From: Psychroserpens mesophilus
Lineage (GTDB): Bacteria > Bacteroidota > Bacteroidia > Flavobacteriales > Flavobacteriaceae
Direction: 5' to 3'
Length of the DNA: 64,000 bases
Assembly (NCBI RefSeq): GCF_000826645.1
Contig: NZ_JXJP01000002.1
Span: forward strand, 62,001-126,000
The notes beneath the pieces were generated by a model. That model ran no database searches and was not told the DNA's origin. It saw only the letters and a list, made by a program, of their open reading frames with translations. Positions 14,280 through 32,360 of this stretch are shown here, one piece after another. Positions within the stretch are counted from its first letter, which is position 1. Every line of letters begins with the position of its first letter. The translations under genes were made by a program, and so were the position numbers.

Positions 14280-14446
14280 AATAAGCCTACATAACCCTTT
14301 TACGAAATTCTATATTACGTAATATTTAATTATTTGACGGTTGAAATGAGAATGTCATAATTCTTTTTTAAATCTGGTATTAAATTTGGAATTTAACCTT
14401 TCTGTTGCAATATTTGTATTCATAAAGTTCAATACCGTATTGAAAT

Positions 14447-14568
14447 GTTATCAAGAAAGGTGGAGGGATTAGACCCTTTGAAGCCTTAGCAACCCTTTGA
14501 ATTCATCAATGAAGGTGCTAAATTCTACTAAGTTATCCGATTCATTTATCGGAAACTGGATAGATAAC
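14447..14568 (+). ncRNA. SAM-I (S-box) riboswitch
   Basis: P1 is formed by GTTATC (14447) and GATAAC (14563-14568). The core reads AAGAAAGGTGGAGGGATTAG, then ACCCTTTGAAGCCTTAGCAACC, an A-rich helix with a variable loop, and GGTGCTAAATTCT. This matches the S-box consensus (AAG-GGTGGAGGGA, TGAAnCC, GCAACC, GGTGCTAA) at every conserved block. It precedes the split metH operon by 140 bp. SAM binding should lower expression of methionine synthase and, through the operon, of metF. Confidence 0.96.
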
Positions 14569-14572
14569 CCAA

Positions 14573-19226: not shown

Positions 19227-20183
19227 ATGAAAGTAACTGAACATATAAAAAAAGCTAACGGAAACACGCAGTTTTCATTCGAAATTTTGCCACCTTTAAA
19301 AGGTCAGCATATCCAATCTATATTTGATAATATTGATCCCTTAATGGAATTTAAACCTCCTTTTATTGATGTCACGTATCACAGGGAAGAATATGTGTAT
19401 AAAGAACTCGAAAATGGATTGCTCAAAAAGCAGGTTGTTAAAAAGCGACCTGGAACGGTTGGAATTTGTGCGGCCATTCAAAATAAATATGGTGTGGATG
19501 CTATTCCACACATTTTGTGTGGCGGATTTACAAAAGAAGACACTGAAAACTTCTTAATCGATCTCGATTTTCTGGGCATAAATAATGTGATGGCACTTCG
19601 TGGTGATGCTGTTAAAACCGAAACCTATTTTAAAGCCGAAAAAGAAGGTCATGCCTATGCCAGCGAATTAGTGAATCAGATTACCGACTTAAACAAGGGT
19701 ATCTATTTGGATGAAGAATTAAAAAACTCATCAGAAACTAATTTTTGTGTTGGTGTTGCTGCTTATCCAGAAAAACATGCCGAAGCACCAAGTTTGGACA
19801 GTGACATTTATTTTTTGAAAAAGAAAATAAAAAATGGTGCACAGTATATCGTGACACAAATGTTTTTTGACAATAGTAAATACTTCGAATTTTTAAATAA
19901 ATGCCGAAAGGAAGGTATTACAGTACCAATCATTCCAGGTCTAAAACCCATAGCAACGAAGAAACAACTCAATTTAATTCCGCATCGATTTCATGTAGAT
20001 TTACCTGAAGATTTAATTATTGAAATTGTAAAATGTAAAGATAATAGCGCTGTAAGACAAGTTGGGATTGAATGGTGTATCGACCAATCAAAAGCCTTAC
20101 AAAAAGCCGGAATTCCAATTTTACATTATTACTCTATGGGAAAGAGTGATAATATTCATGCTGTGGCTTCTAACGTGTTTTAA
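19227..20183 (+). CDS. metF: Methylenetetrahydrofolate reductase
   Basis: This 318-residue flavoprotein reduces 5,10-methylenetetrahydrofolate to the 5-methyl form used by methionine synthase. It has the usual TIM-barrel features: FSFEILPPLKG at the N-terminus with the catalytic Glu, then PFIDVTYHREEYV, GINNVMALRGDAVK, CVGVAAYPEKHAEAP, and the substrate-binding YIVTQMFFDNSKYFEFL. Length is typical. It follows metH on the same strand, separated by a repeat-filled gap, and is probably under the same SAM riboswitch if transcription reads through; no separate promoter is obvious. It supplies the substrate for the enzyme encoded upstream. Confidence 0.97.
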   Translation: MKVTEHIKKANGNTQFSFEILPPLKGQHIQSIFDNIDPLMEFKPPFIDVTYHREEYVYKELENGLLKKQVVKKRPGTVGICAAIQNKYGVDAIPHILCGGFTKEDTENFLIDLDFLGINNVMALRGDAVKTETYFKAEKEGHAYASELVNQITDLNKGIYLDEELKNSSETNFCVGVAAYPEKHAEAPSLDSDIYFLKKKIKNGAQYIVTQMFFDNSKYFEFLNKCRKEGITVPIIPGLKPIATKKQLNLIPHRFHVDLPEDLIIEIVKCKDNSAVRQVGIEWCIDQSKALQKAGIPILHYYSMGKSDNIHAVASNVF

Positions 20184-20214
20184 AAATCCATTTCTAAAAT
20201 CGTTTATTTAAGCT

Positions 20215-20222
20215 TACTTTTG
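20215..20222 (+). promoter_or_regulatory. Promoter -7 element for the 20251 aminotransferase
   Basis: TACTTTTG followed by CAG matches the TAnnTTTG consensus and lies 28 bp before the ATG at 20251. A -33 motif is not clear in the AT-rich upstream sequence. Confidence 0.55.
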
Positions 20223-20250
20223 CAGCACGAAATCGATATAGTTTATAGCC

Positions 20251-21510
20251 ATGCAAACATCAAAATTAGCTGAAGGATTAAAAGGGTCTGAAATTATTAA
20301 AATCGCTGGAGAAGTGAATGCTCTTAAAGCTCAAGGCGAAGTGATTTATAATCAAACCATTGGAGATTTTGATGCCACTATTTTTCCTATTCCAGAAGAA
20401 TTGAAAAGCGAGATTATTGCTGCATATCATAATAACCAAACAAATTATCCTGCGGCAAATGGGATGGAAGTGTTGCGTGAAAGTGTATCGTCTTATTTAT
20501 CTAACCGTCTTGGTCTTGACTATTCTAAAAATGAAATTCTAATTTCTGGAGGTGCTCGACCATTAATTTATGCAATTTATCAAACCGTTTTAGATCTTGA
20601 AGATACGGTTTTATATCCAGTGCCTTCATGGAATAACGATGCCTACACTTATCTGGCCAGAAATAATTCGGTTATTATCGAAACAACACCTGAAAATAAA
20701 TTCATGCCTACGGTTGAGGATATTAAACCTCATATTAAACATGTGAATTTAATAGCGCTGTGTTCACCTTTAAATCCGACAGGAACAACCTTCGATAAAC
20801 AAACGCTTACAGATATTTCGAAACTTGTTGTTGATGAAAATAAACGCAGACTTCAAAATAACGAAAAACCATTGTATGTGCTTTATGACCAGATTTACTG
20901 GCAACTGACTTATGGTTCAACTGAGCATTACAATCCTGTAGAGTTAGTTCCTGAAATGCGAGATTGTACCATTTTCGTAGATGGGATTTCAAAAGCGTTC
21001 GCTGCAACAGGTGTTCGAGTTGGTTGGGCTTTCGGTCCTGTCCATGTGATTAATAAAATGAAAGCCATGCTGAGTCATATTGGTGCCTGGTCTCCAAAGG
21101 CTGAACAGATGGCAACAGCGTCTTATTTAAATCAGACCGAAGCTGTTTCAAACTACTTAGAGCATATAAAAAGTGAGCTGGATTTTAGATTGCATCGTTT
21201 TTATGATGGTTTCCAGAGTCTGAAGTCTGAAGGATTTCCTGTTAATGCTATTGAGCCAGAAGCTGCATTATATTTAACGGTTCAAATTGATCTTATTGGA
21301 AAGACAACTACTGAAGGAAATACCTTATCGACCATTCAGGAAGTAACAAGTTATTTGCTTACGGAAGCTAAACTGGCCATCGTACCTTTTTATGCCTTTG
21401 GAACTTCTGAAGACTCAAACTGGTTTAGACTTTCAGTCGGAACTTCTAAAAAAGAAGATATTTCAACCATATTTGAATTGTTAAAGCAAGCACTAAACAA
21501 TGTATCGTAG
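20251..21510 (+). CDS. Class I/II PLP-dependent aminotransferase
   Basis: A 419-residue fold-type I aminotransferase. Recognisable are the substrate/PLP region FPIPEELKSEIIAAYHNNQT, ILISGGARPLIYAIYQTVLD, the Asn in LCSPLNPTGTTFDKQ, the Tyr in YVLYDQIYWQLTYG, and the Schiff-base Lys in DGISKAFAATGVRVGWAFGP. It resembles aspartate/tyrosine-type aminotransferases of Bacteroidota; the exact amino acid substrate cannot be told from sequence. It starts downstream of its own promoter and ends 45 bp before the deacylase gene's chosen ATG. It is a different gene from the aminotransferase in the pheA operon at 25403. Confidence 0.9.
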   Translation: MQTSKLAEGLKGSEIIKIAGEVNALKAQGEVIYNQTIGDFDATIFPIPEELKSEIIAAYHNNQTNYPAANGMEVLRESVSSYLSNRLGLDYSKNEILISGGARPLIYAIYQTVLDLEDTVLYPVPSWNNDAYTYLARNNSVIIETTPENKFMPTVEDIKPHIKHVNLIALCSPLNPTGTTFDKQTLTDISKLVVDENKRRLQNNEKPLYVLYDQIYWQLTYGSTEHYNPVELVPEMRDCTIFVDGISKAFAATGVRVGWAFGPVHVINKMKAMLSHIGAWSPKAEQMATASYLNQTEAVSNYLEHIKSELDFRLHRFYDGFQSLKSEGFPVNAIEPEAALYLTVQIDLIGKTTTEGNTLSTIQEVTSYLLTEAKLAIVPFYAFGTSEDSNWFRLSVGTSKKEDISTIFELLKQALNNVS

Positions 21511-21555
21511 TTGTTATTTCAATTATTCTTTTACTTTTGTTTCAGAATAAATTGC

Positions 21556-22653
21556 ATGAAGTTTTACCTAACTATTTTATTTACGCTTTCCTTTGTTTCT
21601 TTGTTTTCGCAAGAGGAAGAGCCCAATATTTTTACCATAGACGCTAATTTTTTTTATGGTACTATTTTAGAGCATAATCCCGACATCTCACATCTTATTA
21701 CTGAACATCCAACAGGATTGATTTTAAGTTACAACAAAAAAACTTACGGTTTTAAAGATTGGGAAAGTAGATACAACTATCCAGATTGGGGATTTTCATT
21801 TATTTATCAGGATATGAAAAATGAAAATTTGGGTCAAAACTATAGTTTGTATGCACATTACAATATGTATTTTCTAAAACGACGTCTTAATTTGAGAATC
21901 GGACAAGGTTTAGCTTACAATACAAATCCTTATGATAAAGCCACAAATTTTACTAACAATGCCTATGGATCGCATCTATTGAGCACCACGTATTTGATGT
22001 TTAATTATAAGAAAGAAAATATATTTAAAGGCTTCGGACTTCACGCAGGAATTTCAGTTATACATTATTCTAATGCCAATTTTAGAGCGCCAAATACGTC
22101 TACAAATACATTTGTATTTAATATTGGAGCAAATTATATGTTTAATTATCAAGATGAACCAGAATACCTACCATCTACAGAAGACAAGAAGTTTAAAGAA
22201 AAGATAAAATATAATCTTGTATTTAGATCTGGAGTTAACGAAAGCGATGTGATTGGTGTTGGTCAATTTCCCTTTTATATTGTGTCTGCTTATGCCGATA
22301 AGCGATTGAACCGAAAAAGCGCAATCCAACTTGGAGCAGATGTATTCTTTTCAAAATTTCTGGAAGAGTTGATTTACTATTACTCTGTCGCGTTTCCAGA
22401 ATTTGACGTTAGTGGTGAAGAAGATTGGAAGCGTATCGGTATTTTCGTTGGACACGAATTATTTATCAATAAAATGTCGATTATCACGCAATTGGGATAC
22501 TATGTTTATTATCCTTACGATTTTGAAGGACGCGTATATAATAGAATTGGATTAAAACGTTATTTTGGAGATACATTTTTTGGAGCTATTACCTTAAAGT
22601 CTCATGGAGCTAAAGCTGAAGCTGTAGAATTTGGAATAGGAGTTAGACTATGA
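21556..22653 (+). CDS. PagL-like acyloxyacyl hydrolase / lipid A 3-O-deacylase family protein
   Basis: A 365-residue exported protein. The start at 21556 gives a good signal peptide (MKFYLTILFTLSFVSLFSQ); an upstream in-frame start would add 15 residues. The body is an outer-membrane barrel with the His-Ser pair of the lipid A deacylase family in LHAGISVIHYSNANFRAPN, plus GFKDWESRYNYPDWGFSFIY and a C-terminal FGIGVRL. Enzymes of this family trim acyl chains of lipid A. Bacteroidota members are longer than PagL, as here. Its stop overlaps the next gene's start by 4 bp (ATGA), so the two are coupled. Confidence 0.85.
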   Translation: MKFYLTILFTLSFVSLFSQEEEPNIFTIDANFFYGTILEHNPDISHLITEHPTGLILSYNKKTYGFKDWESRYNYPDWGFSFIYQDMKNENLGQNYSLYAHYNMYFLKRRLNLRIGQGLAYNTNPYDKATNFTNNAYGSHLLSTTYLMFNYKKENIFKGFGLHAGISVIHYSNANFRAPNTSTNTFVFNIGANYMFNYQDEPEYLPSTEDKKFKEKIKYNLVFRSGVNESDVIGVGQFPFYIVSAYADKRLNRKSAIQLGADVFFSKFLEELIYYYSVAFPEFDVSGEEDWKRIGIFVGHELFINKMSIITQLGYYVYYPYDFEGRVYNRIGLKRYFGDTFFGAITLKSHGAKAEAVEFGIGVRL

Positions 22654-23399
22654 AAAAAGTGTTATTTATAATTTTTGCAACTGTACTGTGTTCCTGTAAT
22701 AGCGAAGATGCACCAGACTGTTTTCAAAATTCTGGAGCAATTTTGCAACAGGAATTTAGTGTTAGTGACTTTTCAAAAATCACTGTTTTTCCAAGAGTAG
22801 AACTCATAATCAAACAGGAAGCTACTCAAAAGATTGTTGTTGAAACGGGAGAATATTTATTGAATGATATTGAAATCAAAGTAGAAAACAACCGATTGCT
22901 CATTACCAATAATAATGCTTGTAACCTCACAAGAAATTATGGGATTACTAAAGTGTATGTGAGTGCACCCAATGTAACCGAAATTAGAAATGCATCTGGT
23001 TCAACCGTCAAAAGTGATGGAGTTCTGGGTTATGACAATTTAAAACTAGTTTCCGAAGATTTTAATGCTGAAGGCGATGTGAATAACAATGGAGACTTTC
23101 ATGTACAAGTAGATAGTGTTACGTTGGATTGTATAGTGAATAATTTATCGTCTGTTTTTGTAAGTGGAACGGTTGATGATTTGTTCGTTGGGTATTACTC
23201 TGGTGATGCACGTTTTGAAGGTAGACATCTTGTAGCTCAAAATATTGCCATATTTCAAAGAAGCAGTAACGATCTAATTCTTAATCCTCAGCAATCACTA
23301 AGTGGTGAAATTAGAAGCACAGGTAATGTGATTGTCGTAAATACACCTCCAATCATTGACATTGAGCAGTTCTACACAGGTCATTTGATTTTTGAATAA
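22650..23399 (+). CDS. GIN-domain (DUF2807) lipoprotein
   Basis: A 249-residue protein with a lipoprotein signal (MKKVLFIIFATVLCSCNSED). The mature part is a right-handed beta-helix of the head GIN / DUF2807 type: FSVSDFSKITVFPRVELIIK, VVETGEYLLNDIEIKVENN, and the repeating ASGSTVKSDGVLGYDNLKLV pattern, in which successive turns have small residues and Asn/Asp. These proteins are thought to be envelope-associated auto-transporter adhesin-like domains in Bacteroidota, with no defined function. It overlaps the deacylase gene by 4 bp. Its 3' end is convergent with gldA, with only a few bases between. Confidence 0.85.
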   Translation: MKKVLFIIFATVLCSCNSEDAPDCFQNSGAILQQEFSVSDFSKITVFPRVELIIKQEATQKIVVETGEYLLNDIEIKVENNRLLITNNNACNLTRNYGITKVYVSAPNVTEIRNASGSTVKSDGVLGYDNLKLVSEDFNAEGDVNNNGDFHVQVDSVTLDCIVNNLSSVFVSGTVDDLFVGYYSGDARFEGRHLVAQNIAIFQRSSNDLILNPQQSLSGEIRSTGNVIVVNTPPIIDIEQFYTGHLIFE

Positions 23400-23402
23400 C
23401 GA

Positions 23403-24299
23403 TTAATCTGAGGTCAATTCTCTAAATAAACTTTCGAGGCTAGCATTTTTCTGATTCAATTGAAGGATTTTCAATGCATTATCGTGAGCAAAATCAAAGA
23501 CATGAGAACGCATATCATCAGACGTTGAAAATGTAATTTCATAGACAAAATCATGGGTATTTTTTACGGTATTCACATGCGGTAATTTTAATAAAAAGAC
23601 GTCTTCTACCCGATAATCAAATTCTACAATAACCGTTTGCTCTTTTTCATCACGAAGCTCTTTCAGCTTTTTATCGGCGACAATCTTTCCTTTATTAATA
23701 ATGATAACGCGATCACAAATCGCTTCAACTTCCTGCATAATGTGAGTTGATAAAAATACCGTTTTATTTTTGCCAACCGTTTTTATTAAATGTCGTATAT
23801 CAACCAACTGATTTGGGTCAAGACCAGTTGTAGGTTCATCAAGAATTAAAACATCAGGTTCATGTAATAACGCGTTTGCTAATCCGACACGTTGACGATA
23901 CCCTTTCGACAATTGTCCGATTTTTTTATGTGCTTCAGGTGTTAAACCCGTTAGCTCAATCACATCATGAACTCTGGATTTATCTGTATTGTAAACATTG
24001 GCGTTAAACGTCAAATATTCTCTAACGTACATGTCGAGATATAAAGGATTGTGTTCAGGAAGATAGCCAACACTGGTTTGGACACGCTGTTTGTCTTTTG
24101 AAACATCAAAACTATTGACTTTTGCTGAGCCTTCAGAAGCATTGATATAGGTCGTTAATATTTTCATTAAAGTTGATTTTCCTGCGCCATTCGGACCCAG
24201 AAAACCTACGATTTCTCCTTTATTAACTGAAAATGAAATGCTGTCAAGGGCTTTCTGTTCACCATAAACTTTCGAAATGTTTTCAACTTCAATAGACAT
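23403..24299 (-). CDS. gldA: Gliding motility ABC transporter ATP-binding subunit GldA
   Basis: A 298-residue ABC ATPase with Walker A GFLGPNGAGKSTLMKIL, Q-loop VGYLPEHNPLY, signature QLSKGYRQRVGLANALL, Walker B DVLILDEPTTGLDP and switch His in FLSTHIMQEVEAICD. The C-terminal extension (about 220-298: VEFDYRVEDVFLLKLPHVNT) is that of GldA. GldA works with GldF and GldG membrane subunits, needed for gliding in Flavobacterium johnsoniae; their genes are not in the window. It is monocistronic as far as seen and diverges from the pheA operon leader. Confidence 0.93.
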   Translation of the reverse strand: MSIEVENISKVYGEQKALDSISFSVNKGEIVGFLGPNGAGKSTLMKILTTYINASEGSAKVNSFDVSKDKQRVQTSVGYLPEHNPLYLDMYVREYLTFNANVYNTDKSRVHDVIELTGLTPEAHKKIGQLSKGYRQRVGLANALLHEPDVLILDEPTTGLDPNQLVDIRHLIKTVGKNKTVFLSTHIMQEVEAICDRVIIINKGKIVADKKLKELRDEKEQTVIVEFDYRVEDVFLLKLPHVNTVKNTHDFVYEITFSTSDDMRSHVFDFAHDNALKILQLNQKNASLESLFRELTSD

Positions 24300-24449
24300 A
24301 GACCAATTTGTTTTCTCAAAAATAGTAATTATAACGAATGACCACCTTCAAATTATGAATTCTTTAAAACTGAAACGTAAAACTCAAAAATAACGTATAA
24401 CAATTTTGATTTGTTAAAATAATAATTACATTAGCATCTTAATAATGAC

Positions 24450-24527
24450 ATGAACACATCAAATCATACATATTATAACTGGTTTTATTTCTTTTTTAGC
24501 GAAAAGAGAGAGACGTTATATGTATAA
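24450..24527 (+). CDS. Attenuator leader peptide of the Phe/Tyr operon
   Basis: ATG at 24450 opens a 25-codon frame whose product contains TYYNWFYFFF (residues 7-16), that is three Tyr, one Trp and four Phe codons in ten positions, ending at TAA 24525-24527. It is followed at once by alternative RNA hairpins and a terminator, then pheA. The layout is that of classical amino-acid attenuation leaders such as pheL. A ribosome stalled in the aromatic run would leave 24510-24521 free to form the antiterminator; a ribosome reaching the stop would cover it. Not detectable by gene finders because of its size. Confidence 0.85.
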   Translation: MNTSNHTYYNWFYFFFSEKRETLYV

Positions 24528-24578
24528 TTTATACTAATAAATATAATATGAGTCTCGATGGAAATCGGGACTTTTTTT
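24510..24578 (+). promoter_or_regulatory. Attenuator: antiterminator and terminator before pheA
   Basis: Antiterminator: GAGAC (24510-24514) with GTCTC (24552-24556), and GTTATAT (24515-24521) with ATATAAT (24541-24547). Terminator: AGTCTCGAT (24551-24559) with ATCGGGACT (24564-24572), loop GGAA, then seven T (24572-24578). The two structures share GTCTC, so they exclude each other. The pheA ATG begins directly after the T run, so the terminator stem would also cover the ribosome landing site. Confidence 0.85.
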
Positions 24579-25406
24579 ATGATAAAATCTGTAGCCATAC
24601 AAGGAGTAAAAGGATCATTTCATCACATTGTGTCACAGCAATATTTTGATAAAACGATTGCTGTTTCAGAATATCTAACATTCGATGGAGTGGTAGATAG
24701 CATTCTGAAAACTACCAATGATGCCGCTATTATGGCAATCGAAAATTCAATTGCTGGCTCTATCATTCCAAATTATGCGTTGATTGATACCTTTAATTTG
24801 CATATTGTAGGCGAACATTATTTAGATATTCAACATCATTTAATGGCATTGCCAGATCAAACCATTGACGATATAAAAGAAGTATATTCACATCCAATGG
24901 CCTTATTGCAGTGTAAAACGTTTTTCAAACAGTATCCACATATCAAATTAATTGAGGACAGAGATACAGCTGAAGTAGCACAACGCATCCAAACGCATCA
25001 ACTAAAACACGTAGCTGCAATTGCATCTCGATTGGCTTCCGAATTATTTGAACTCAAGATTCTGGCAGAAAGCATTCAAACCATAAAGCACAATGAAACA
25101 CGATTTTTTATTGTAAAGACTCAAAATTCTGAAATCCCAGAGGAAGCCATCAACAAAGCTTCCATAAAATTTGAATTAGACCATAAAAGAGGAAGTTTAG
25201 CGACTATTTTGAACGTATTAAGTGATTGTAAACTAAATTTAACAAAGATACAATCACTCCCTAAAATTGAAACACCTTGGAAATACGCTTTTTTTGTTGA
25301 TGTCACCTTTGACACATACAACGATTATAAAAAAGCGAAGTCCATTATGGAAATTATGGCTCAAGAGTTTAAAGTCCTGGGAGAATATAAAAATGCAAGA
25401 TTATGA
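24579..25406 (+). CDS. pheA: Prephenate dehydratase
   Basis: A 275-residue enzyme that converts prephenate to phenylpyruvate. The catalytic domain has VAIQGVKGSFHHIVSQQYFD, the conserved AIENSIAGSI, EHYLDIQHHLMALP, VYSHPMALLQC, and the signature HNETRFFIV. The C-terminal ACT domain (about 195-275) has SIKFELDHKRGSLATILNVL and LTKIQSLPKIETPWKYAFFVD, where phenylalanine would act as feedback inhibitor. The start at 24579 follows the terminator's T run; an upstream in-frame ATG at 24558 lies inside the terminator loop and is unlikely. It is the first enzyme gene after the attenuator; its stop overlaps the next start by 4 bp. Confidence 0.96.
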   Translation: MIKSVAIQGVKGSFHHIVSQQYFDKTIAVSEYLTFDGVVDSILKTTNDAAIMAIENSIAGSIIPNYALIDTFNLHIVGEHYLDIQHHLMALPDQTIDDIKEVYSHPMALLQCKTFFKQYPHIKLIEDRDTAEVAQRIQTHQLKHVAAIASRLASELFELKILAESIQTIKHNETRFFIVKTQNSEIPEEAINKASIKFELDHKRGSLATILNVLSDCKLNLTKIQSLPKIETPWKYAFFVDVTFDTYNDYKKAKSIMEIMAQEFKVLGEYKNARL

Positions 25407-26560
25407 TACCTATAGCGAATCGATTACAACATGTTGATGAATACTACTTTTCAAAAAAATTGAGAGAAGTTAACTTGCTCAAAGCTCAAGGTAAACCTAT
25501 CATTAATTTAGGCATTGGAAGTCCGGATTTAAATCCGCCTGAACGTGTTCTTAATGCTTTGGTAGAAACCTTCAACGAAGATGGAGCGCATAAATATCAA
25601 AGTTATCAAGGTCTTCCAGAATTGAGAGAAGCGATAACCGACTTTTACAAACGACATTTTAATGTGCCTTTAAGTCCGTTAACGGAAGTATTGCCACTCA
25701 TGGGAAGTAAAGAAGGAATCTTGCATATTTCTATGGCTTTTTTAAATGCAGGAGATGAAGTTCTTATTCCAAATCCTGGTTATCCAACGTATCAATCGGT
25801 TACTAATCTGGTTGGAGCAACACCAGTTTTATACGATTTAACTGAAGAACATAACTGGTTTCCAGATTTAATAGCTTTAGAGAAAAGAGGCGTGGACAAG
25901 GTAAAATTAATGTGGGTGAATTATCCTCACATGCCTACGGGAGCCACAGCAACTAATAAGTTATTTGAAGATTTAATCACTTTTGCTAAGCGTAATGATA
26001 TTTTAATAGTCAACGATAATCCGTATAGTTTTATTCTTAATAAATATCCAAGAAGTATTTTAAAATACAAAGATGCTAAAGAGGTGTGTTTAGAACTTAA
26101 TTCTTTAAGTAAAACCTTTAATATGGCAGGTTGGCGAGTAGGAATGCTCTTGGGAAAACCCGAATATATCAATGCGGTTTTACGTGTTAAAAGCAACATG
26201 GATTCTGGAATGTTTTTAGGAATTCAAAAAGGAGCTATTGAAGCATTGAATTGCTCAGATATGTGGTACGTTAGCCTCAATAGCGTTTACGAACAACGAC
26301 GACAAATTGTCTGGAAAATTGCTGATGCACTTAACTGTACTTACGATGAAAACGCAGCAGGATTGTTTGTCTGGTGTAAATTGCCAGATTACTTAGATGC
26401 TGAAGAGTATATCGATTTAATCCTTAAAGAACGATCTATATTTATTACACCAGGAACCATTTTTGGGTCTAATGGAAACCGATACATACGAATATCACTT
26501 TGCGCTTCTCAAGATGACCTTGAAGAAGCTTTAGCGAGATTAAAACCAAAGAATGAATAA
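25403..26560 (+). CDS. Class I/II aminotransferase of the Phe/Tyr operon
   Basis: A 385-residue PLP enzyme of fold type I, with GKPIINLGIGSPDLNPPERV, ALVETFNEDGAHKYQSYQGL, EVLIPNPGYPTYQSV, the Asn/Tyr motif IVNDNPYSFILN, the Lys in LNSLSKTFNMAGWRVGMLLG, and C-terminal NRYIRISLCASQDDLEEALARL with the substrate Arg. It overlaps pheA by 4 bp and tyrA by 8 bp, so all three are tightly coupled. Position between prephenate dehydratase and dehydrogenase suggests it transaminates phenylpyruvate and hydroxyphenylpyruvate to Phe and Tyr; this is inference from context. Confidence 0.92.
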   Translation: MIPIANRLQHVDEYYFSKKLREVNLLKAQGKPIINLGIGSPDLNPPERVLNALVETFNEDGAHKYQSYQGLPELREAITDFYKRHFNVPLSPLTEVLPLMGSKEGILHISMAFLNAGDEVLIPNPGYPTYQSVTNLVGATPVLYDLTEEHNWFPDLIALEKRGVDKVKLMWVNYPHMPTGATATNKLFEDLITFAKRNDILIVNDNPYSFILNKYPRSILKYKDAKEVCLELNSLSKTFNMAGWRVGMLLGKPEYINAVLRVKSNMDSGMFLGIQKGAIEALNCSDMWYVSLNSVYEQRRQIVWKIADALNCTYDENAAGLFVWCKLPDYLDAEEYIDLILKERSIFITPGTIFGSNGNRYIRISLCASQDDLEEALARLKPKNE

Positions 26561-27404
26561 GATATACATTATAGGCGTTGGTTTAATTGGAGGAAGTATG
26601 GCTTTAGATATAAAGTCTATTAATAAGCAGGCTAAAATCTTCGGAATAGATACCAATGCATCGCATTTAGACGAGGCTATAAAACTCAATATCATTGATG
26701 AAAAAGCCACGTACGATGATTTGGAAGCAGCAGATTTAGTCGTGTTGTCTATTCCTGTCGATAAGGCAGTTTCCGAATTGCCTAAAGTTCTTGACCGTAT
26801 TTCAGATACAACCTTGGTTATTGATGTAGGTTCTACAAAATACCCTGTTTGTAAAGCTATTGAACAACACGAAAAGCGTCGTAATTTTTTGGCAACACAT
26901 CCTATTGCTGGTACTGAATTTTCTGGACCGAAAGCAGCTATTCATAGCTTGTTTCAGAAGAAAACCAATATTATTTGTGAAGTTGAAAAAACAACATTTA
27001 AACTTCAGGAGAAAGCTTTGCAGTTATTTTCAGACTTAGGTATGCGTATCAGATATATGAATCCGGAAGCGCATGATAAACACATAGCTTATGTATCACA
27101 TTTGTCGCATATAAGTTCGTTTATGCTGGGAAAAACAGTGATTGAAAAAGAAAAAAACGAGCGCGATATTTTCGATATGGCAGGAAGTGGTTTTGAAAGT
27201 ACAGTTCGATTGGCAAAAAGTTCTCCTGTCATGTGGACGCCAATTTTCAAACAAAATAAAGATAATGTCATTGAAACACTTGATGAATATATCACCAATT
27301 TAAAACAATTTAAGGCGTTCATGGAAACTGATAATTTCGATGAGATTTTTAACGAAATGCAAAATACAAATCATATAAAGGACATATTAAACGGAATACA
27401 ATAA
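26553..27404 (+). CDS. tyrA: Prephenate dehydrogenase
   Basis: A 283-residue NAD(P)-dependent enzyme for the oxidative step towards tyrosine. It begins with the Rossmann motif IYIIGVGLIGGSMALDIK, then DLVVLSIPVDKAVSELP, VIDVGSTKYPVCKAI, the catalytic His region FLATHPIAGTEFSGPKAA, and DKHIAYVSHLSHISSFML with the second conserved His. There is no ACT or chorismate mutase domain, so it is monofunctional; feedback is instead supplied by operon attenuation and probably by the DAHP synthase. It overlaps the upstream aminotransferase by 8 bp. A palindromic repeat occupies the gap to the next gene. Confidence 0.95.
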   Translation: MNKIYIIGVGLIGGSMALDIKSINKQAKIFGIDTNASHLDEAIKLNIIDEKATYDDLEAADLVVLSIPVDKAVSELPKVLDRISDTTLVIDVGSTKYPVCKAIEQHEKRRNFLATHPIAGTEFSGPKAAIHSLFQKKTNIICEVEKTTFKLQEKALQLFSDLGMRIRYMNPEAHDKHIAYVSHLSHISSFMLGKTVIEKEKNERDIFDMAGSGFESTVRLAKSSPVMWTPIFKQNKDNVIETLDEYITNLKQFKAFMETDNFDEIFNEMQNTNHIKDILNGIQ

Positions 27405-27414
27405 AAAAAATGCA

Positions 27415-27462
27415 AGGTCTAAGATTGTCTCACTGAGCGTAGTCGAAGTGCAATCAAGACCT
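27415..27462 (+). repeat. Dispersed hairpin repeat, family 2, in the aromatic operon
   Basis: A long stem AGGTCT-GATTG / CAATC-AGACCT encloses CACT / AGTG and the core GAGCGTAGTCGA. The same core with other stems occurs at 63231-63252 (ATTCC / GGAAT) and, inverted, at 19053-19072 (CGTT / AACG). It lies between tyrA and the DAHP synthase gene without an obvious T tract on the plus strand. Confidence 0.8.
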
Positions 27463-27477
27463 AATTAAAAACTTACT

Positions 27478-28560
27478 ATGGAAAATAAAAAAGAAATGAG
27501 AACATGGTTAGATGATTTAAATTTAAGTCATCCTCTGGTCATCGCTGGACCATGTAGTGCTGAAACCGAAGAACAAGTGTTGAACATAGCACATGAGCTA
27601 AAAGATACCGATGTAAATTATTACAGAGCTGGTATTTGGAAGCCTAGAACGCGTCCGGGAAACTTTGAAGGCGTTGGCGCTTTAGGTTTAAAATGGTTGC
27701 AGAAAGTAAAAGAAGAAACTGGATTAAAAACGGCAACCGAAGTCGCGAATAGAAATCATGTTGAACTTGCTCTGGCACATGACATCGATTTATTATGGAT
27801 TGGTGCTCGTTCTACTGTGAGTCCGTTTATTGTACAAGAAATTGCCGATGCCTTAAAAGGAACCGATAAAATTGTATTGGTGAAAAATCCAGTAAATCCC
27901 GATTTGCCTTTGTGGTTAGGCGCTGTAGAGCGTTTAGCGTCTGCTAACATTAAAAACTTAGGCGCAATTCACAGAGGGTTTTCTACCTATGAAAAATCGA
28001 AATACCGTAACAATCCAGAATGGCAAATTGCTATTGAGTTACAAACGAGATTTCCAGATTTACCACTAATTAACGATCCATCTCATATTACTGGGAAGCG
28101 TGATATGATTTTTGATGTTTCGCAAACAGCATTAGACCTTAATTTTGATGGACTGATGATTGAAACACACACAACTCCAGATAAAGCATGGAGTGATGCT
28201 GCTCAGCAGGTAACACCTCAAAATCTGGTACAAATCATGACCGATTTGAGAATTAGAAAGGAAACAGATCCTGAAGCTGAATATAATACGCAGCTTAATA
28301 ACTTAAGGGCTCAAATTGATGTTGTCGATAACCAGCTGATCGAACTTTTAGGAAAGCGAATGAAAGTTGCCGATGGCATTGGTCAGCTTAAAAAACAAAA
28401 GAATGTTGCTGTTTTACAAAGTAAACGCTGGAATGAAATTTTAGGTAAAATGGTTCTTGAAGGCAATGACAAAGGACTAAGCGAAGAGTTTATTTTGCGC
28501 TTGTTTAAAGCGATTCATCAAGAATCTATTAATCATCAGGAGAAAATTATTAATAACTAA
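27478..28560 (+). CDS. DAHP synthase fused to AroQ-type chorismate mutase
   Basis: A 360-residue bifunctional enzyme. Residues about 1-260 are a DAHP synthase of the KDO8P-synthase-like (I-beta) type: LVIAGPCSAETEEQVLNIA, YYRAGIWKPRTRPGNFEGVG, LWIGARSTVSPFIVQEIA, LIVLVKNP-like IVLVKNPVNPDLPLW, GAIHRGFSTYEKSKYRN, PLINDPSHITGKRDMI. Residues about 275-355 are a chorismate mutase helix bundle: LRAQIDVVDNQLIELLGKRM, VADGIGQLKKQKNVAVLQSK. It supplies both the first step of the shikimate route and chorismate to prephenate. It is the last gene of the attenuated operon and ends at a strong terminator. Confidence 0.95.
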   Translation: MENKKEMRTWLDDLNLSHPLVIAGPCSAETEEQVLNIAHELKDTDVNYYRAGIWKPRTRPGNFEGVGALGLKWLQKVKEETGLKTATEVANRNHVELALAHDIDLLWIGARSTVSPFIVQEIADALKGTDKIVLVKNPVNPDLPLWLGAVERLASANIKNLGAIHRGFSTYEKSKYRNNPEWQIAIELQTRFPDLPLINDPSHITGKRDMIFDVSQTALDLNFDGLMIETHTTPDKAWSDAAQQVTPQNLVQIMTDLRIRKETDPEAEYNTQLNNLRAQIDVVDNQLIELLGKRMKVADGIGQLKKQKNVAVLQSKRWNEILGKMVLEGNDKGLSEEFILRLFKAIHQESINHQEKIINN

Positions 28561-28567
28561 CCTCATA

Positions 28568-28599
28568 AAACAAAGCCTCGTTAATTCGAGGCTTTGTTT
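28568..28599 (+). terminator. Bidirectional terminator after the aromatic operon
   Basis: AAACAAAGCCTCG / CGAGGCTTTGTTT with loop TTAATT lies between the convergent ends of the DAHP synthase gene and the 28602 gene and can serve both. Confidence 0.85.
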
Positions 28600-28601
28600 A
28601 T

Positions 28602-29054
28602 CTATTGCTTGTTTCGTTTAAAAATAAAACGTGTTATAAAAATACCTTGACCATCATCGGTACCACTATCACTTTCTACAGCACTTGTTACAAATGCTAA
28701 TTCCCAGCCTTCTTCAATCATCGTGTTTATTTTTGATGACAAAACAGCATCATTTGCAGCAATATTTTGAAAACGAATACCTCCCAAATTATAAAAATTC
28801 AACAATTTTGTCTCTTCAAAATCTTTGACTCTAATATCACCTCGCTTCGATTTATTTCTCGAATTGTCGTCTTCGGTTTGTTCTGAAGTGAAATCTTTAT
28901 AATCTCTGTCTTCATTAGCTGAAATAAGTCTGGAACGACCCAATCCATTTGGTACAATAGATTCTACACTTGTAATAATTTTATACTCTACCTGAGCATA
29001 GAAATCGGCTAAACTGAGTAAACCAATAGCTAAAAACAGTATTATTTTTTTCAT
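28602..29054 (-). CDS. Exported DUF4177-like small protein
   Basis: A 150-residue protein with signal peptide MKKIILFLAIGLLSLADFYA. The segments VEYKIITSVES and INTMIEEGWELAFVTSAVES, followed by ITRFIFKR, resemble the DUF4177 pattern (a strand, then LN-EGWELV, then a final strand), but with a long acidic/basic insert (about residues 40-85). Function unknown; probably periplasmic. It is a single gene, convergent with the aromatic operon and divergent from the 29212 gene. Confidence 0.72.
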   Translation of the reverse strand: MKKIILFLAIGLLSLADFYAQVEYKIITSVESIVPNGLGRSRLISANEDRDYKDFTSEQTEDDNSRNKSKRGDIRVKDFEETKLLNFYNLGGIRFQNIAANDAVLSSKINTMIEEGWELAFVTSAVESDSGTDDGQGIFITRFIFKRNKQ

Positions 29055-29211
29055 GTTAATTATGTTAATAATGATTTCACTAAGATAATCTTTATCCTTA
29101 AGCTTTTAAAATTGTGGTGACTAATAGACCCTAAAATTTGAAAAGTAAATTAAAAGTCTATTTTTGTTGCCGAAAGCGTTTTCTTTCAATCAACAACAAC
29201 AACAAGATTTT

Positions 29212-30855
29212 ATGATTAAAAAAACAATGTGCCTGTTAATGATGCTTGGTCTCTCAGTAATAGTGAATGCACAAAACATCGGACCAATTTCAATTACTCA
29301 TGGAGAGGAAATTGAAGCAGATAAAGAAAAAATTGTCAGAATTGCTGGTGAAGCCAACGGTAAAATTTACACTTTAGCAACGGCAAAGAAAAACTTCTAC
29401 ATCAAAGTATTTAATTCTGATGACATGTCTTTGATTTCAACCAATGAAATTGAGATGGACGATTTTAAAGATAAAGAACCAGAGTTCGAAGAAATCGCTG
29501 TATTAGATGGTAAAATGTTTATCCTTGGTAGTGTTTATGATAAAAAGGCTAAAGAAGCTAATTTGTTAGCTGTTGAAATTTCTGAAGATGGAAAACTCAC
29601 CACAAACGCTAAGAAGTTATTTACAACCAAAGTGACCAAAAATCGGGAGCGAGGTGCTTTTTACATTAAAGAATCACCAGGTCTTGACCGACTTCTAATT
29701 TTACATGCAGCCTTATTTGATAAGGAAGAAGTAATTCAGTATGAAGTGAAACTCATCAATAATAATCTTGATATTATGATGAGTCATATTGAGAAAGTTC
29801 CATTTAACGATAGAAAAGATTTAGAGTTTGATATTGCAGATTTTGATGTCAATTTTAATGATGATGTTTTTATTGTTATTAATGAGAGCTATAGAGACAG
29901 AAAAGCCAAAACGAATCATGAGAAATTTCAATTACATACGTTTAAATCGGCTAACGGTTTCGAAAAAGAAGTCGTAGATATCGCATTTACTGATAAAGAA
30001 ATTATTAATTGTGAAATGTTAGCTGATGAAAACGGTAAAGTGCGATTAGTTGGTTTTTACTCTAGTGTTAGAGACAATGGAAAGGCTAATAAAGAACTGA
30101 AAGGTGTTTATGCTTCTGTAGTTGATGTTAATTCTAAACGTGTAGACCAGTTAAAATTTAATGAGTTTGATTATGATACTAAAGTGAAATTACTTGGTGA
30201 ACGTCGAGCTAAAAGAGGAAAAGATGTCAAACCACTTTATATTACACACAGTTTGGTTCAGAAAAGTGATGGTGGAGTTATACTGCTTTCAGAATATCAA
30301 TTGATAATCGTCGGAAGAAGTTCGGGTATTGGTCCATTGCAAATTACACCTATAACACATATTAACAATGAAATTATCGTAACCTCAATTAATGCTAATG
30401 GTTCTGTTGATTGGGCAAATGTAATTCCTAAAAAACAAAAAGCAGCCTATTCTTCGTTAGCAATAGGATTTGCAGCCTTTGCAGGAAATTCAAATTTTAC
30501 GGTGAGTGCAGGTGTAAGTGTGCCCATTGGAGTTTTAGGAAAAGGACCTGAATATTTAAGCGCAATGCCAATTTATGAAAACGGACAATTGACTGTTTTA
30601 TTTAACGACAACACTAAAAATTACGGTGTAACAGATATTGAAGAAATAAAATGGTTAGGAAATTATAATAAAGCTGTTCCTGCTGCAATTATGTTTGATA
30701 GTAATGGTGAAATGACACGTGTTGATCAGGAAGATGTAGAAAAACAGCAATTGGTGTTAAGACCAAGAGTACATTTCAGAAGTTCACCTACAGAATATAT
30801 TATTTATTCATCTAGAAAGTCTGAAGACAAACTAGGTCGAATGAAAATGAACTAG
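29212..30855 (+). CDS. Exported protein of unknown function
   Basis: A 547-residue protein. The ATG at 29212 gives a clear signal peptide (MIKKTMCLLMMLGLSVIVNA); a longer frame from a TTG would add Gln-rich residues before it and is unlikely. The mature protein has recurrent beta motifs reminiscent of a propeller (GEANGKIYTLATAKKNFYIK, IAVLDGKMFILGSVYDKKAK, MLADENGKVRLVGFYSSVRD) and a Lys-rich middle. I do not recognise the family beyond its resemblance to hypothetical proteins of Flavobacteriaceae. A strong terminator follows. It stands alone between the 28602 gene and rsgA. Confidence 0.72.
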   Translation: MIKKTMCLLMMLGLSVIVNAQNIGPISITHGEEIEADKEKIVRIAGEANGKIYTLATAKKNFYIKVFNSDDMSLISTNEIEMDDFKDKEPEFEEIAVLDGKMFILGSVYDKKAKEANLLAVEISEDGKLTTNAKKLFTTKVTKNRERGAFYIKESPGLDRLLILHAALFDKEEVIQYEVKLINNNLDIMMSHIEKVPFNDRKDLEFDIADFDVNFNDDVFIVINESYRDRKAKTNHEKFQLHTFKSANGFEKEVVDIAFTDKEIINCEMLADENGKVRLVGFYSSVRDNGKANKELKGVYASVVDVNSKRVDQLKFNEFDYDTKVKLLGERRAKRGKDVKPLYITHSLVQKSDGGVILLSEYQLIIVGRSSGIGPLQITPITHINNEIIVTSINANGSVDWANVIPKKQKAAYSSLAIGFAAFAGNSNFTVSAGVSVPIGVLGKGPEYLSAMPIYENGQLTVLFNDNTKNYGVTDIEEIKWLGNYNKAVPAAIMFDSNGEMTRVDQEDVEKQQLVLRPRVHFRSSPTEYIIYSSRKSEDKLGRMKMN

Positions 30856-30873
30856 TATAAAATTAATAATCGT

Positions 30874-30904
30874 TAAAAGACCGTCAAGCTGACGGTCTTT
30901 TTTT
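30874..30904 (+). terminator. Terminator before rsgA
   Basis: AAAAGACCGTC / GACGGTCTTTT with loop AAGCT and a T run, 19 bp after the stop of the 29212 gene. Confidence 0.9.
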
Positions 30905-30941
30905 ATTGGTAAATGCTATAATAATTAGCATCTTTGTTATA

Positions 30942-31889
30942 ATGACAGGAATCGTTTATAAATCTACAGGAAGCTGGTACACCGTTAAGACAAATCTTGG
31001 TGCTGTATATCAATGTCGAATTAAGGGAAAATTCAGATTAAAAGGAATCAAAAGTACTAATCCTATTGCTGTTGGTGATGTGGTCGATTTTGAATTGGAA
31101 ACAAAAAATGATACCACGACAGGTGTAATTAATTCCATTCACGATCGTAAAAATTACATCGTACGTAAATCGGTGAATTTATCTAAGCAAACACATATCA
31201 TTGCCTCAAATATAGATCAGGTTTTTTTACTCGTTACAATAGATAATCCACCAACATTTACCACGTTTATAGATCGTTTTTTAGTCACAGCCGAAGCGTA
31301 TTCTATTAAAACGATTCTGCTTTTCAATAAAATTGACACCTATAATGAAACGACTTTAGATGAAGTGCGATACTTAGCACATATTTATAGAAAAATTGGT
31401 TATGAATGTATCGGAATTTCAGCAGAAACAGGAAAAAATGTCGATAAGGTAAAAGCACTCATGGTCGATAAAGTAAGTATGTTTGCTGGTCATTCTGGAG
31501 TTGGAAAATCTACTTTGGTAAATGCTATTGAACCAGAGTTAGATTTAAAGACTAAAGCCATATCTACACAACATAGTCAAGGTCAACATACCACAACATT
31601 TGCAGAAATGTTTGACTTAAGTTTTGGAGCAAAAATTATTGATACACCTGGTATTAAAGGTTTTGGAATAGTTGATATGGATAAAGAAGAAGTAGGTGAT
31701 TACTTTCCTGAATTTTTTGAACTAAAGCAAGAGTGTAAATTCAATAATTGTTTGCATAAAGAAGAGCCTAAATGTGCCGTAAAAGAAGCTCTGGAAAGGG
31801 ATGACGTGTCATTTTCGAGATATAGAAGCTACCTTCAAATTTTGGAAGGTGAAGATGAACATTACAGAACTGATAATTGGGACGAATAA
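30942..31889 (+). CDS. rsgA: Ribosome small-subunit-dependent GTPase RsgA
   Basis: A 315-residue circularly permuted GTPase that acts late in 30S subunit assembly. An N-terminal OB fold (about 1-65: GIVYKSTGSWYTVKT, YQCRIKGKFRLKG) is followed by G4 (LLFNKIDTY), G5, then G1 (FAGHSGVGKSTLVNAIEP), G2/G3 (IIDTPGIKGFG), in the permuted order. The zinc finger is CKFNNCLHKEEPKCAVKEAL with ligands Cys-Cys-His-Cys. The start at 30942 is preferred because an upstream in-frame start lies immediately behind the terminator and adds a non-homologous hydrophobic stretch. It heads a plus-strand series of closely spaced genes that runs to aroA. Confidence 0.96.
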   Translation: MTGIVYKSTGSWYTVKTNLGAVYQCRIKGKFRLKGIKSTNPIAVGDVVDFELETKNDTTTGVINSIHDRKNYIVRKSVNLSKQTHIIASNIDQVFLLVTIDNPPTFTTFIDRFLVTAEAYSIKTILLFNKIDTYNETTLDEVRYLAHIYRKIGYECIGISAETGKNVDKVKALMVDKVSMFAGHSGVGKSTLVNAIEPELDLKTKAISTQHSQGQHTTTFAEMFDLSFGAKIIDTPGIKGFGIVDMDKEEVGDYFPEFFELKQECKFNNCLHKEEPKCAVKEALERDDVSFSRYRSYLQILEGEDEHYRTDNWDE

Positions 31890-31907
31890 TCTAAATAAGT
31901 TCAAACT

Positions 31908-32360
31908 ATGAAAGCAGTCATTCAAAGAGTAACAAGAGCTAGTGTCACTGTAGATGCAGAAATTCTTGCTGTCATTTCAAATGGTTTGCTAATTCTTTTA
32001 GGTATCGAAGAGGAAGATACTCATGACGATATTACTTGGCTTTCAAGTAAAATAGCAAATCTTCGGATCTTTTCTGATGATAATGATGTTATGAATGTCT
32101 CTTTAAAAGACTCAAAAGGTGATGCAATCGTTGTTAGTCAGTTTACACTTCATGCCAGCACCAAAAAAGGAAACAGACCTAGTTACATCAAAGCAGCAAA
32201 GCCAGAAACTGCAATTCCATTGTATGAAGCATTTGTCAAGCAATTGGAATTAGACTTAGGCAAACAGGTTAGAACAGGACGCTTTGGAGCAGATATGAAA
32301 GTTGAACTTTTAAATGATGGTCCTGTAACTATCATTATTGATACCAAAAACAAAGTTTAA
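31908..32360 (+). CDS. dtd: D-aminoacyl-tRNA deacylase
   Basis: A 150-residue enzyme that removes mischarged D-amino acids (and Gly) from tRNA. Family signatures are all present: MKAVIQRVTRASVTVD at the N-terminus, ISNGLLILLGIEEEDT, LSSKIANLRIFSDDNDVMN, the SQFT motif in VVSQFTLHASTKKGNRPSY, and the GP motif in LNDGPVTIIID. Length is exactly typical. It follows rsgA by 18 bp, and its stop overlaps the next ATG by one base, so it is in the same operon. Confidence 0.97.
   Translation: MKAVIQRVTRASVTVDAEILAVISNGLLILLGIEEEDTHDDITWLSSKIANLRIFSDDNDVMNVSLKDSKGDAIVVSQFTLHASTKKGNRPSYIKAAKPETAIPLYEAFVKQLELDLGKQVRTGRFGADMKVELLNDGPVTIIIDTKNKV

Follow-up and report, generated by a model that had tools for sequence, protein, structure and literature searches.

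A predicted Phe/Tyr leader-peptide attenuator in front of the pheA operon of Psychroserpens mesophilus and related Bacteroidota

How does Psychroserpens mesophilus adjust transcription of its phenylalanine and tyrosine operon, and does the short region before the first gene, pheA, read the supply of these amino acids through a leader peptide? To answer this, we analysed a stretch of 64 kb around the operon, referred to here as the window, together with the corresponding regions of related genomes. Comparison revealed a leader ORF, codons matched to the operon, three mutually exclusive hairpins and conserved spacing. From these sequence data, the element is very probably a classical ribosome-mediated transcription attenuator of the operon encoding PheA, an aminotransferase, TyrA and a DAHP synthase/chorismate mutase.

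The leader and its hairpins in the window

The features of the locus are as follows.

23403-24299, opposite strand: GldA-type ABC ATPase gene, upstream of the element (465 bits, cut-off 402.6)
24405-24434, plus strand: putative promoter, from sequence; TTTG (24405-24408), 18 nt, TACATTAG (24427-24434)
24450-24527, plus strand: leader peptide ORF of 25 codons, MNTSNHTYYNWFYFFFSEKRETLYV, stop TAA; from sequence, kept in relatives
24466-24525, plus strand: protector hairpin (1:2), a purine-rich stretch including arm 2 pairing with the aromatic-codon region; predicted by folding alone, -13.9 kcal/mol
24471-24497, plus strand: aromatic codons Tyr Tyr Asn Trp Phe Tyr Phe Phe Phe, putatively regulatory and forming arm 1; from sequence
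24510-24556, plus strand: antiterminator hairpin (2:3), 24510-24532 with 24537-24556; -11.8 kcal/mol, covariation
24550-24578, plus strand: intrinsic terminator (3:4), 24550-24559 with 24564-24573; -13.4 kcal/mol
24579-25406, plus strand: pheA, encoding a prephenate dehydratase of 275 aa and leading the operon (194 bits to its best NCBIfam model, under that model's cut-off of 219)
25403-26560, plus strand: PLP-dependent aminotransferase, overlapping the end of pheA
26553-27404, plus strand: tyrA, prephenate dehydrogenase (394 bits, cut-off 295)
27478-28560, plus strand: DAHP synthase–chorismate mutase fusion of the common aromatic pathway (191 bits to its best model, under that model's cut-off of 279; window only)

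A first-pass annotation of this DNA had described a 25-codon leader ORF, an antiterminator with two pairings and a terminator with seven T residues, and we recovered each of them. The antiterminator pairs GAGAC (24510-24514) with GTCTC (24552-24556) and also GTTATAT with ATATAAT. The terminator stem consists of AGTCTCGAT (24551-24559) and ATCGGGACT (24564-24572), and its T run occupies 24572-24578. Folding additionally identified the protector hairpin, which that annotation lacked and which completes a classical three-hairpin attenuator; its inner part (24482-24514) is present in the fold of the full leader as well. The pheA ATG (24579) lies directly 3' of the T run and 51 nt from the leader stop. 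A further in-frame ATG at 24558 falls within the terminator stem-loop, and gene callers could use it to place the pheA start seven codons early.

The full leader folds at -30.5 kcal/mol (z = -4.05; none of 200 dinucleotide shuffles was equally stable), and the terminator segment on its own gave z = -4.48. A scan of positions 20000-32000 for a consensus terminator alone found 5 against 5.9 expected, which is not significant. A joint detector required both an aromatic-rich ORF starting with ATG and a terminator. Applied to both strands of the window, it returned the pheA leader element as its single match, and none (0, 0 and 0) in three base-shuffled windows.

The putative promoter ends 15 nt 5' of the leader ATG and loosely resembles the -33/-7 type of Bacteroidota. 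A loose version of the pattern (TTG or TTTG, 17-23 nt, TAnnTT(T/A)(G/C/A)) preceded 158 of 198 leaders, where base-shuffled sequence gave 9.7 ± 2.7. The strict -7 motif TAnnTTTG was found upstream of 27 of the 198, against 7.9 ± 2.9 in shuffled sequence, and is absent from the window.

The operon matches the codons of its leader, with pheA, tyrA and DAHP synthase present in the window and the aminotransferase and tyrA in relatives. Of 80 named loci, the best 80 of 421 confirmed, every one had the aminotransferase downstream of pheA on the same strand, and 79 had a tyrA piece downstream.

Taken together, these features suggest the following course of events. A ribosome reading the leader would move close behind RNA polymerase. 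When charged Phe-tRNA or Tyr-tRNA is short, it would halt within the aromatic run with its front edge just before arm 2, breaking the protector; arm 2 would then join arm 3 before arm 4 exists, so that the terminator would fail to form and transcription would continue into pheA. When both tRNAs are amply charged, the ribosome would reach the stop codon and cover arm 2, arm 3 would pair with arm 4, and transcription would end at the T run. Should the leader go untranslated, the protector would retain arm 2 and transcription would end too.

Conservation, covariation and ribosome spacing

Four lines of evidence strongly support leader-peptide attenuation as the predicted mode of control: conservation, covariation, spacing that fits a ribosome, and codon choice specific to the amino acid. 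A PheA match was obtained in 130 of 149 genomes of the family, P. mesophilus included, and the 5' region of all 130 was inspected. The detector, whose standard range is about 420 nt upstream of pheA, found an aromatic-rich leader with a terminator in 123 of them, the conservation among related Flavobacteriaceae that the first-pass annotation had proposed to check. Among the seven missed by the detector, two carry the element 568 nt (L005) and 391 nt (L163) upstream of pheA, in one the sequence begins within the leader (L015), and one shows by eye a leader with an imperfect stem (L127). The other three (L172, L190 and L200) had no element in about 650 nt upstream, or in about 384 nt for L190, where the contig ends.

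The 80 named loci (Psychroserpens, Gelidibacter, Olleya, Algibacter and others), which overlap in part with the 130 genomes, gave 76 matches at the standard range and 78 when the search was widened to 700 nt. These 78 fell one per locus, all upstream of pheA and none elsewhere in 754,102 strand-bases counted on both strands, and the sequences of the two remaining loci (L053 and L073) extended just 150 and 128 nt upstream. A chance origin of the element was rejected, given the z-score of the leader fold (-4.05) and a detector that was silent both in shuffled windows and elsewhere in the related loci.

The position of the element relative to the gene varied. In 199 detector-positive family loci the end of the terminator was about 5-177 nt from pheA, the values for L111-L210 being approximate by a few nt. 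The earlier observation that the ATG abuts the T run thus holds in the window and in some species only, and is not a general feature. In the Gelidibacter-type loci L005, L049 and L058, of which the first two apparently come from the same contig, the leader stop was 461-568 nt upstream.

These distances bear on the best-placed alternative, translational control, in which the hairpin by the pheA start would bar ribosomes without ending transcription. The window itself lends it something, since the stem stands just 5 nt from the pheA ATG and contains the in-frame ATG at 24558. However, the T run is kept although the terminator-to-gene distance ranges as widely as described, and the element lies hundreds of nucleotides away in the Gelidibacter-type loci and in L163. 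We consider this reading highly improbable.

Sequence between the attenuator and pheA had features of its own. L005, L049 and L058 contain hundreds of bases with hairpin-like sequence there, and in L009, L067, L084, L098 and L105, which represent several genera, extra hairpin-like sequence was seen by eye in the terminator-to-pheA interval (such as GTTCAAC..GTTGAAC and CCTC..GAGG). The extra sequence of the latter five loci did not match Rfam.

Transcription attenuation predicts mutually exclusive helices, and for these we compared 205 distinct leaders. Arm 2 is located in the leader's final codons, arm 3 in the terminator, and the two arms change jointly (GAGAC/GTCTC, GGGAC/GTCCC, CCGGGTT/AACCCGG and others). 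In a permutation test that optimised helices per sequence, and whose statistic ignores relatedness, each leader's own duplex had -10.70 kcal/mol on average; permuted partners gave -8.25 ± 0.134, and 2000 permutations never reached the observed value. Keeping one leader per distinct arm 3 (n = 105), the values were -11.40 and -8.07 ± 0.21 (0 of 5000 as low). With arm 3 shared and covarying with arm 2, the claim that the antiterminator excludes the terminator is supported.

We also scored an alignment of 60 sequences, picked for diversity from 93. Here 97.9% of terminator cells were paired, and all 8 core pairs had double changes. The antiterminator had 33 cells with double changes, where shuffles gave 14.2 (0 of 500), and its covariation score was 0.353 against 0.238 shuffled (0 of 500); two of the five measures were less extreme, namely the number of pairs with double changes (58 of 500 shuffles) and of pair types (16 of 500). 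Only 74.7% of antiterminator cells were paired, with one clade off by one base by eye, and this misalignment accounts for pair 41-106 being unpaired in 34 of 60 rows. Because the column alignment is faulty here, we relied on the permutation test as well. RNAalifold predicted the terminator as the sole structure of this alignment, as expected for helices that are mutually exclusive.

Folding at successive simulated stages agreed with the proposed sequence of events. Without a ribosome, arm 2 was paired with the aromatic-codon region in 201 of the 205 leaders, and the protector pairing was better than shuffled in 192. With a ribosome stalled and the RNA made as far as the loop, the antiterminator formed in 204 of 205, a count that is weak on its own since it still formed in 0.62 of cases when arm 2 was shuffled. 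With the ribosome at the stop codon, the terminator formed in 204 of 205. For the complete RNA behind a stalled ribosome, the terminator was the preferred equilibrium fold in 177 of the 205, the window's leader included, so that the mechanism requires kinetic, co-transcriptional folding. The terminator, the covarying antiterminator and the protector of a trp/phe/his-type attenuator are thus all present as predicted structures.

The spacing between codons and hairpins was also conserved. From the last aromatic codon to the start of arm 2 the median distance was 10 nt (5-95%: 7-11; n = 205), less variable than that from arm 2 to the stop codon. Taking the ribosome footprint of other bacteria (P site minus 14 to plus 15), the start of arm 2 falls just past the front edge of a ribosome with the last aromatic codon in its A site. 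Arm 2 was left wholly free at 1737 of 1819 aromatic codons placed in the A site: at the first such codon in 205 of 205 leaders and at every one in 131, while the last left it not wholly free in the other 74. In 199 of 205 leaders, a ribosome at the stop codon covered 4 nt or more of arm 2. The stop codon had been described as placed so that a finishing ribosome covers the antiterminator arm and a stalled one leaves it free, and with a footprint of this size both parts of that description agree with the leaders compared.

Amino acids read by the leaders

In the aromatic runs of the 205 distinct leaders, 45% of codons were for Phe, 29% for Tyr and 6% for Trp. Both Phe and Tyr were present in all 201 distinct peptides, whereas Trp occurred in 136 of 184 distinct peptides of the family and in 3 of 17 outside it. 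The proposal that the leader senses all three aromatic amino acids thus stands for Phe and Tyr, and for Trp in part only. A sensor for Phe and Tyr fits an operon that makes Phe, Tyr and their common precursor, and trpE carries a separate leader with WWW. Phe and Tyr would be the main signals, with the single Trp codon perhaps a weak third, minor at most. In sequence terms, the leader is a short ORF in which codons for the apparent end products of its operon form a run.

Similar leaders precede other amino acid operons of these bacteria. In P. mesophilus itself, a His leader, MTFIQLHHHHFHTSAQAR (HHHHFH), stands with a terminator before hisG (L211/L277), and a Trp leader, MNINLNHTWWWNSRKAIFVN (WWW), with a terminator before trpE (L213/L307). 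Family-wide, HisG matches were obtained in 33 of 41 genomes and TrpE was searched in 41; among the best 30 loci of each, P. mesophilus included, His leaders preceded hisG in 29 and Trp leaders preceded trpE in 26. By eye we saw no leader before thrA in the P. mesophilus genome, and the ILVD_EDD_N domain had no match in it.

Could something other than tRNA charging be read from these peptides? If the leader encoded an arrest peptide, the nascent chain itself would stall the ribosome regardless of charging, and conservation within the clade of P. mesophilus indeed extends beyond the aromatic residues (TYxNWFYFFFS-like, 121 anchored leaders). Between clades, however, mostly aromatic richness is retained (e.g. 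L150 MTKQYFWNGFYFYFFFKRSTGLF, L201 MNTFFTYFNFWFFYFGGKYRVVM), and part of the within-clade conservation is at the codon level, as RNA pairing demands. Of the 121 anchored leaders, 110 use TTC at one Phe position, whereas TTT stands at the two adjoining positions in 112 and 119; at a codon of arm 2, GAG accounts for 105 of 113. Such skewed choice fits constraints from predicted RNA pairing. The same logic recurs in the His and Trp leaders, and an arrest peptide appears even less probable than translational control.

Codon counts likewise address the possibility that the U-rich run serves only to pair with arm 2, the aromatic residues being a by-product and an RNA-binding protein or ligand the controller. 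Pairing between the run and the purine-rich arm 2 is indeed predicted. Nevertheless, among 1000 TTN codons in the runs, 999 were TTT or TTC and 1 was a Leu codon (TTG; TTA and TTG being equally U-rich), and the Trp codon TGG occurred 141 times. The near absence of Leu codons points to selection on amino acid identity, as does, within the family, the use of His codons before hisG and Trp codons before trpE. U-richness as a by-product was rejected on these counts, and we give this reading hardly any weight. Least probable of all, to the point of being negligible, is that the leader is an upstream ORF raising pheA translation through re-initiation, as proposed for short leader genes: the two frames are near each other and share orientation, but 51 nt with a terminator between them separate stop and start in the window, against the favoured distance of about 10-16 nt (PMC4833913).

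Distribution and comparison with known systems

Outside the family, 19 of 31 matched genomes of the order were fetched, and nine of them had a leader with a terminator (L216, L217, L218, L222-L226 and L235). The aromatic score was weak (2.2) in L216 and L217, and the joint detector concurred on all nine but L226. A further genome fetched alongside (L227) is a family member and was positive. The ten negatives (L219, L220, L221 and L228-L234) include seven with a distant PheA of 28-34% identity (L228-L234) and two from 0.6 Mb genomes (L219 and L221).

At the level of class and phylum, we fetched 40 genomes as a selection of the matches. Where PheA scored above 200 bits (14 genomes), an aromatic leader ORF was found in 12, and together with a terminator by the detector in 9; in the two negatives, L236 and L237, the pheA start lies 4 nt inside the end of a different open frame, one of 214 codons or more. 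Where PheA scored lower (26 genomes), there was no leader ORF in the 450 nt searched, although for several (e.g. L256, L267, L272 and L274) absence was weakly tested, the match lying within a longer open frame so that the 450 nt may be coding. This division, 12 of 14 against 0 of 26, suggests that the element is tied to one pheA type and not to the whole phylum.

On balance, we lean towards a two-signal Phe/Tyr attenuator in which the ribosome acts as a ruler, common across the class with this type of pheA and forming part of a general leader-peptide control of Phe/Tyr, His and Trp operons. Bacteroidota hardly use Shine-Dalgarno initiation. If such a general system is real, a ribosome would load at once on a very short 5' end, trail RNA polymerase closely and control termination. 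If the pheA leader works as read, it would be evidence for coupling of transcription and translation at Bacteroidota leaders, and a single leader would unite Phe and Tyr sensing, matching an operon that makes both.

At the gathering score of Rfam, the only match in the 64 kb window was a SAM riboswitch (RF00162, 69.3 bits) at 14445-14570 on the plus strand; the pheA leader was unmatched, and neither the T-box model nor the gammaproteobacterial family Phe_leader had a match there. At E-values up to 10, positions 24380-24640 returned only MicC, Ref1C and Plastid-psbJ-3, far under their gathering scores. As the element was unmatched by Rfam 15 in the window and 13 relatives, it would represent a new RNA family.

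The closest parallels are the pheA leader (pheL) and pheST attenuators of Escherichia coli, in which a leader ORF with Phe codons operates by protector, antiterminator and terminator logic. The element described here resembles them in its Phe-codon leader, its three hairpins and its position before pheA. It differs in that Tyr codons are always mixed with Phe, that the operon adds tyrA and DAHP synthase, and that it has no Rfam match. The trp and his operon attenuators of Proteobacteria share the three-hairpin design, in another phylum and for amino acids other than those of the pheA operon.

By 2010, leader-peptide systems had been shown in Proteobacteria and Actinobacteria only, to which Firmicutes were then added (PMC2965389), and a passage of PMC8305728, on the his genes of the superphylum, mentions attenuation for enterobacteria only. 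The first-pass annotation called such attenuation seldom described in Bacteroidota; seldom is right, but it is not without precedent. An experimental test of it in this phylum was not found in the literature searched, which mostly excluded subscription journals. In Bacteroides thetaiotaomicron, short ORFs reminiscent of leader peptides have been noted (PMC7366714), and an attenuator is predicted before pheA>hisHb>aroA-aroQ>tyrA (PMC1173090, Table 7, from the Merino website). The latter shares phylum, operon content and predicted attenuator with our case, but its entry is putative only, and the word 'leader' does not occur in the text. Flavobacterium psychrophilum transcripts gave clues to leader peptides before amino acid operons, and 5' elements of pheA and hisG were found to be conserved in Flavobacteriaceae without an Rfam match (PMC9723704). 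That report concerns the same family and gene; what it says in section 19 covers neither a peptide nor stems, covariation or amino-acid specificity. Set beside these predictions, the pheA leader is a case defined by sequence and open to test, in a phylum for which classical attenuation has so far been predicted.
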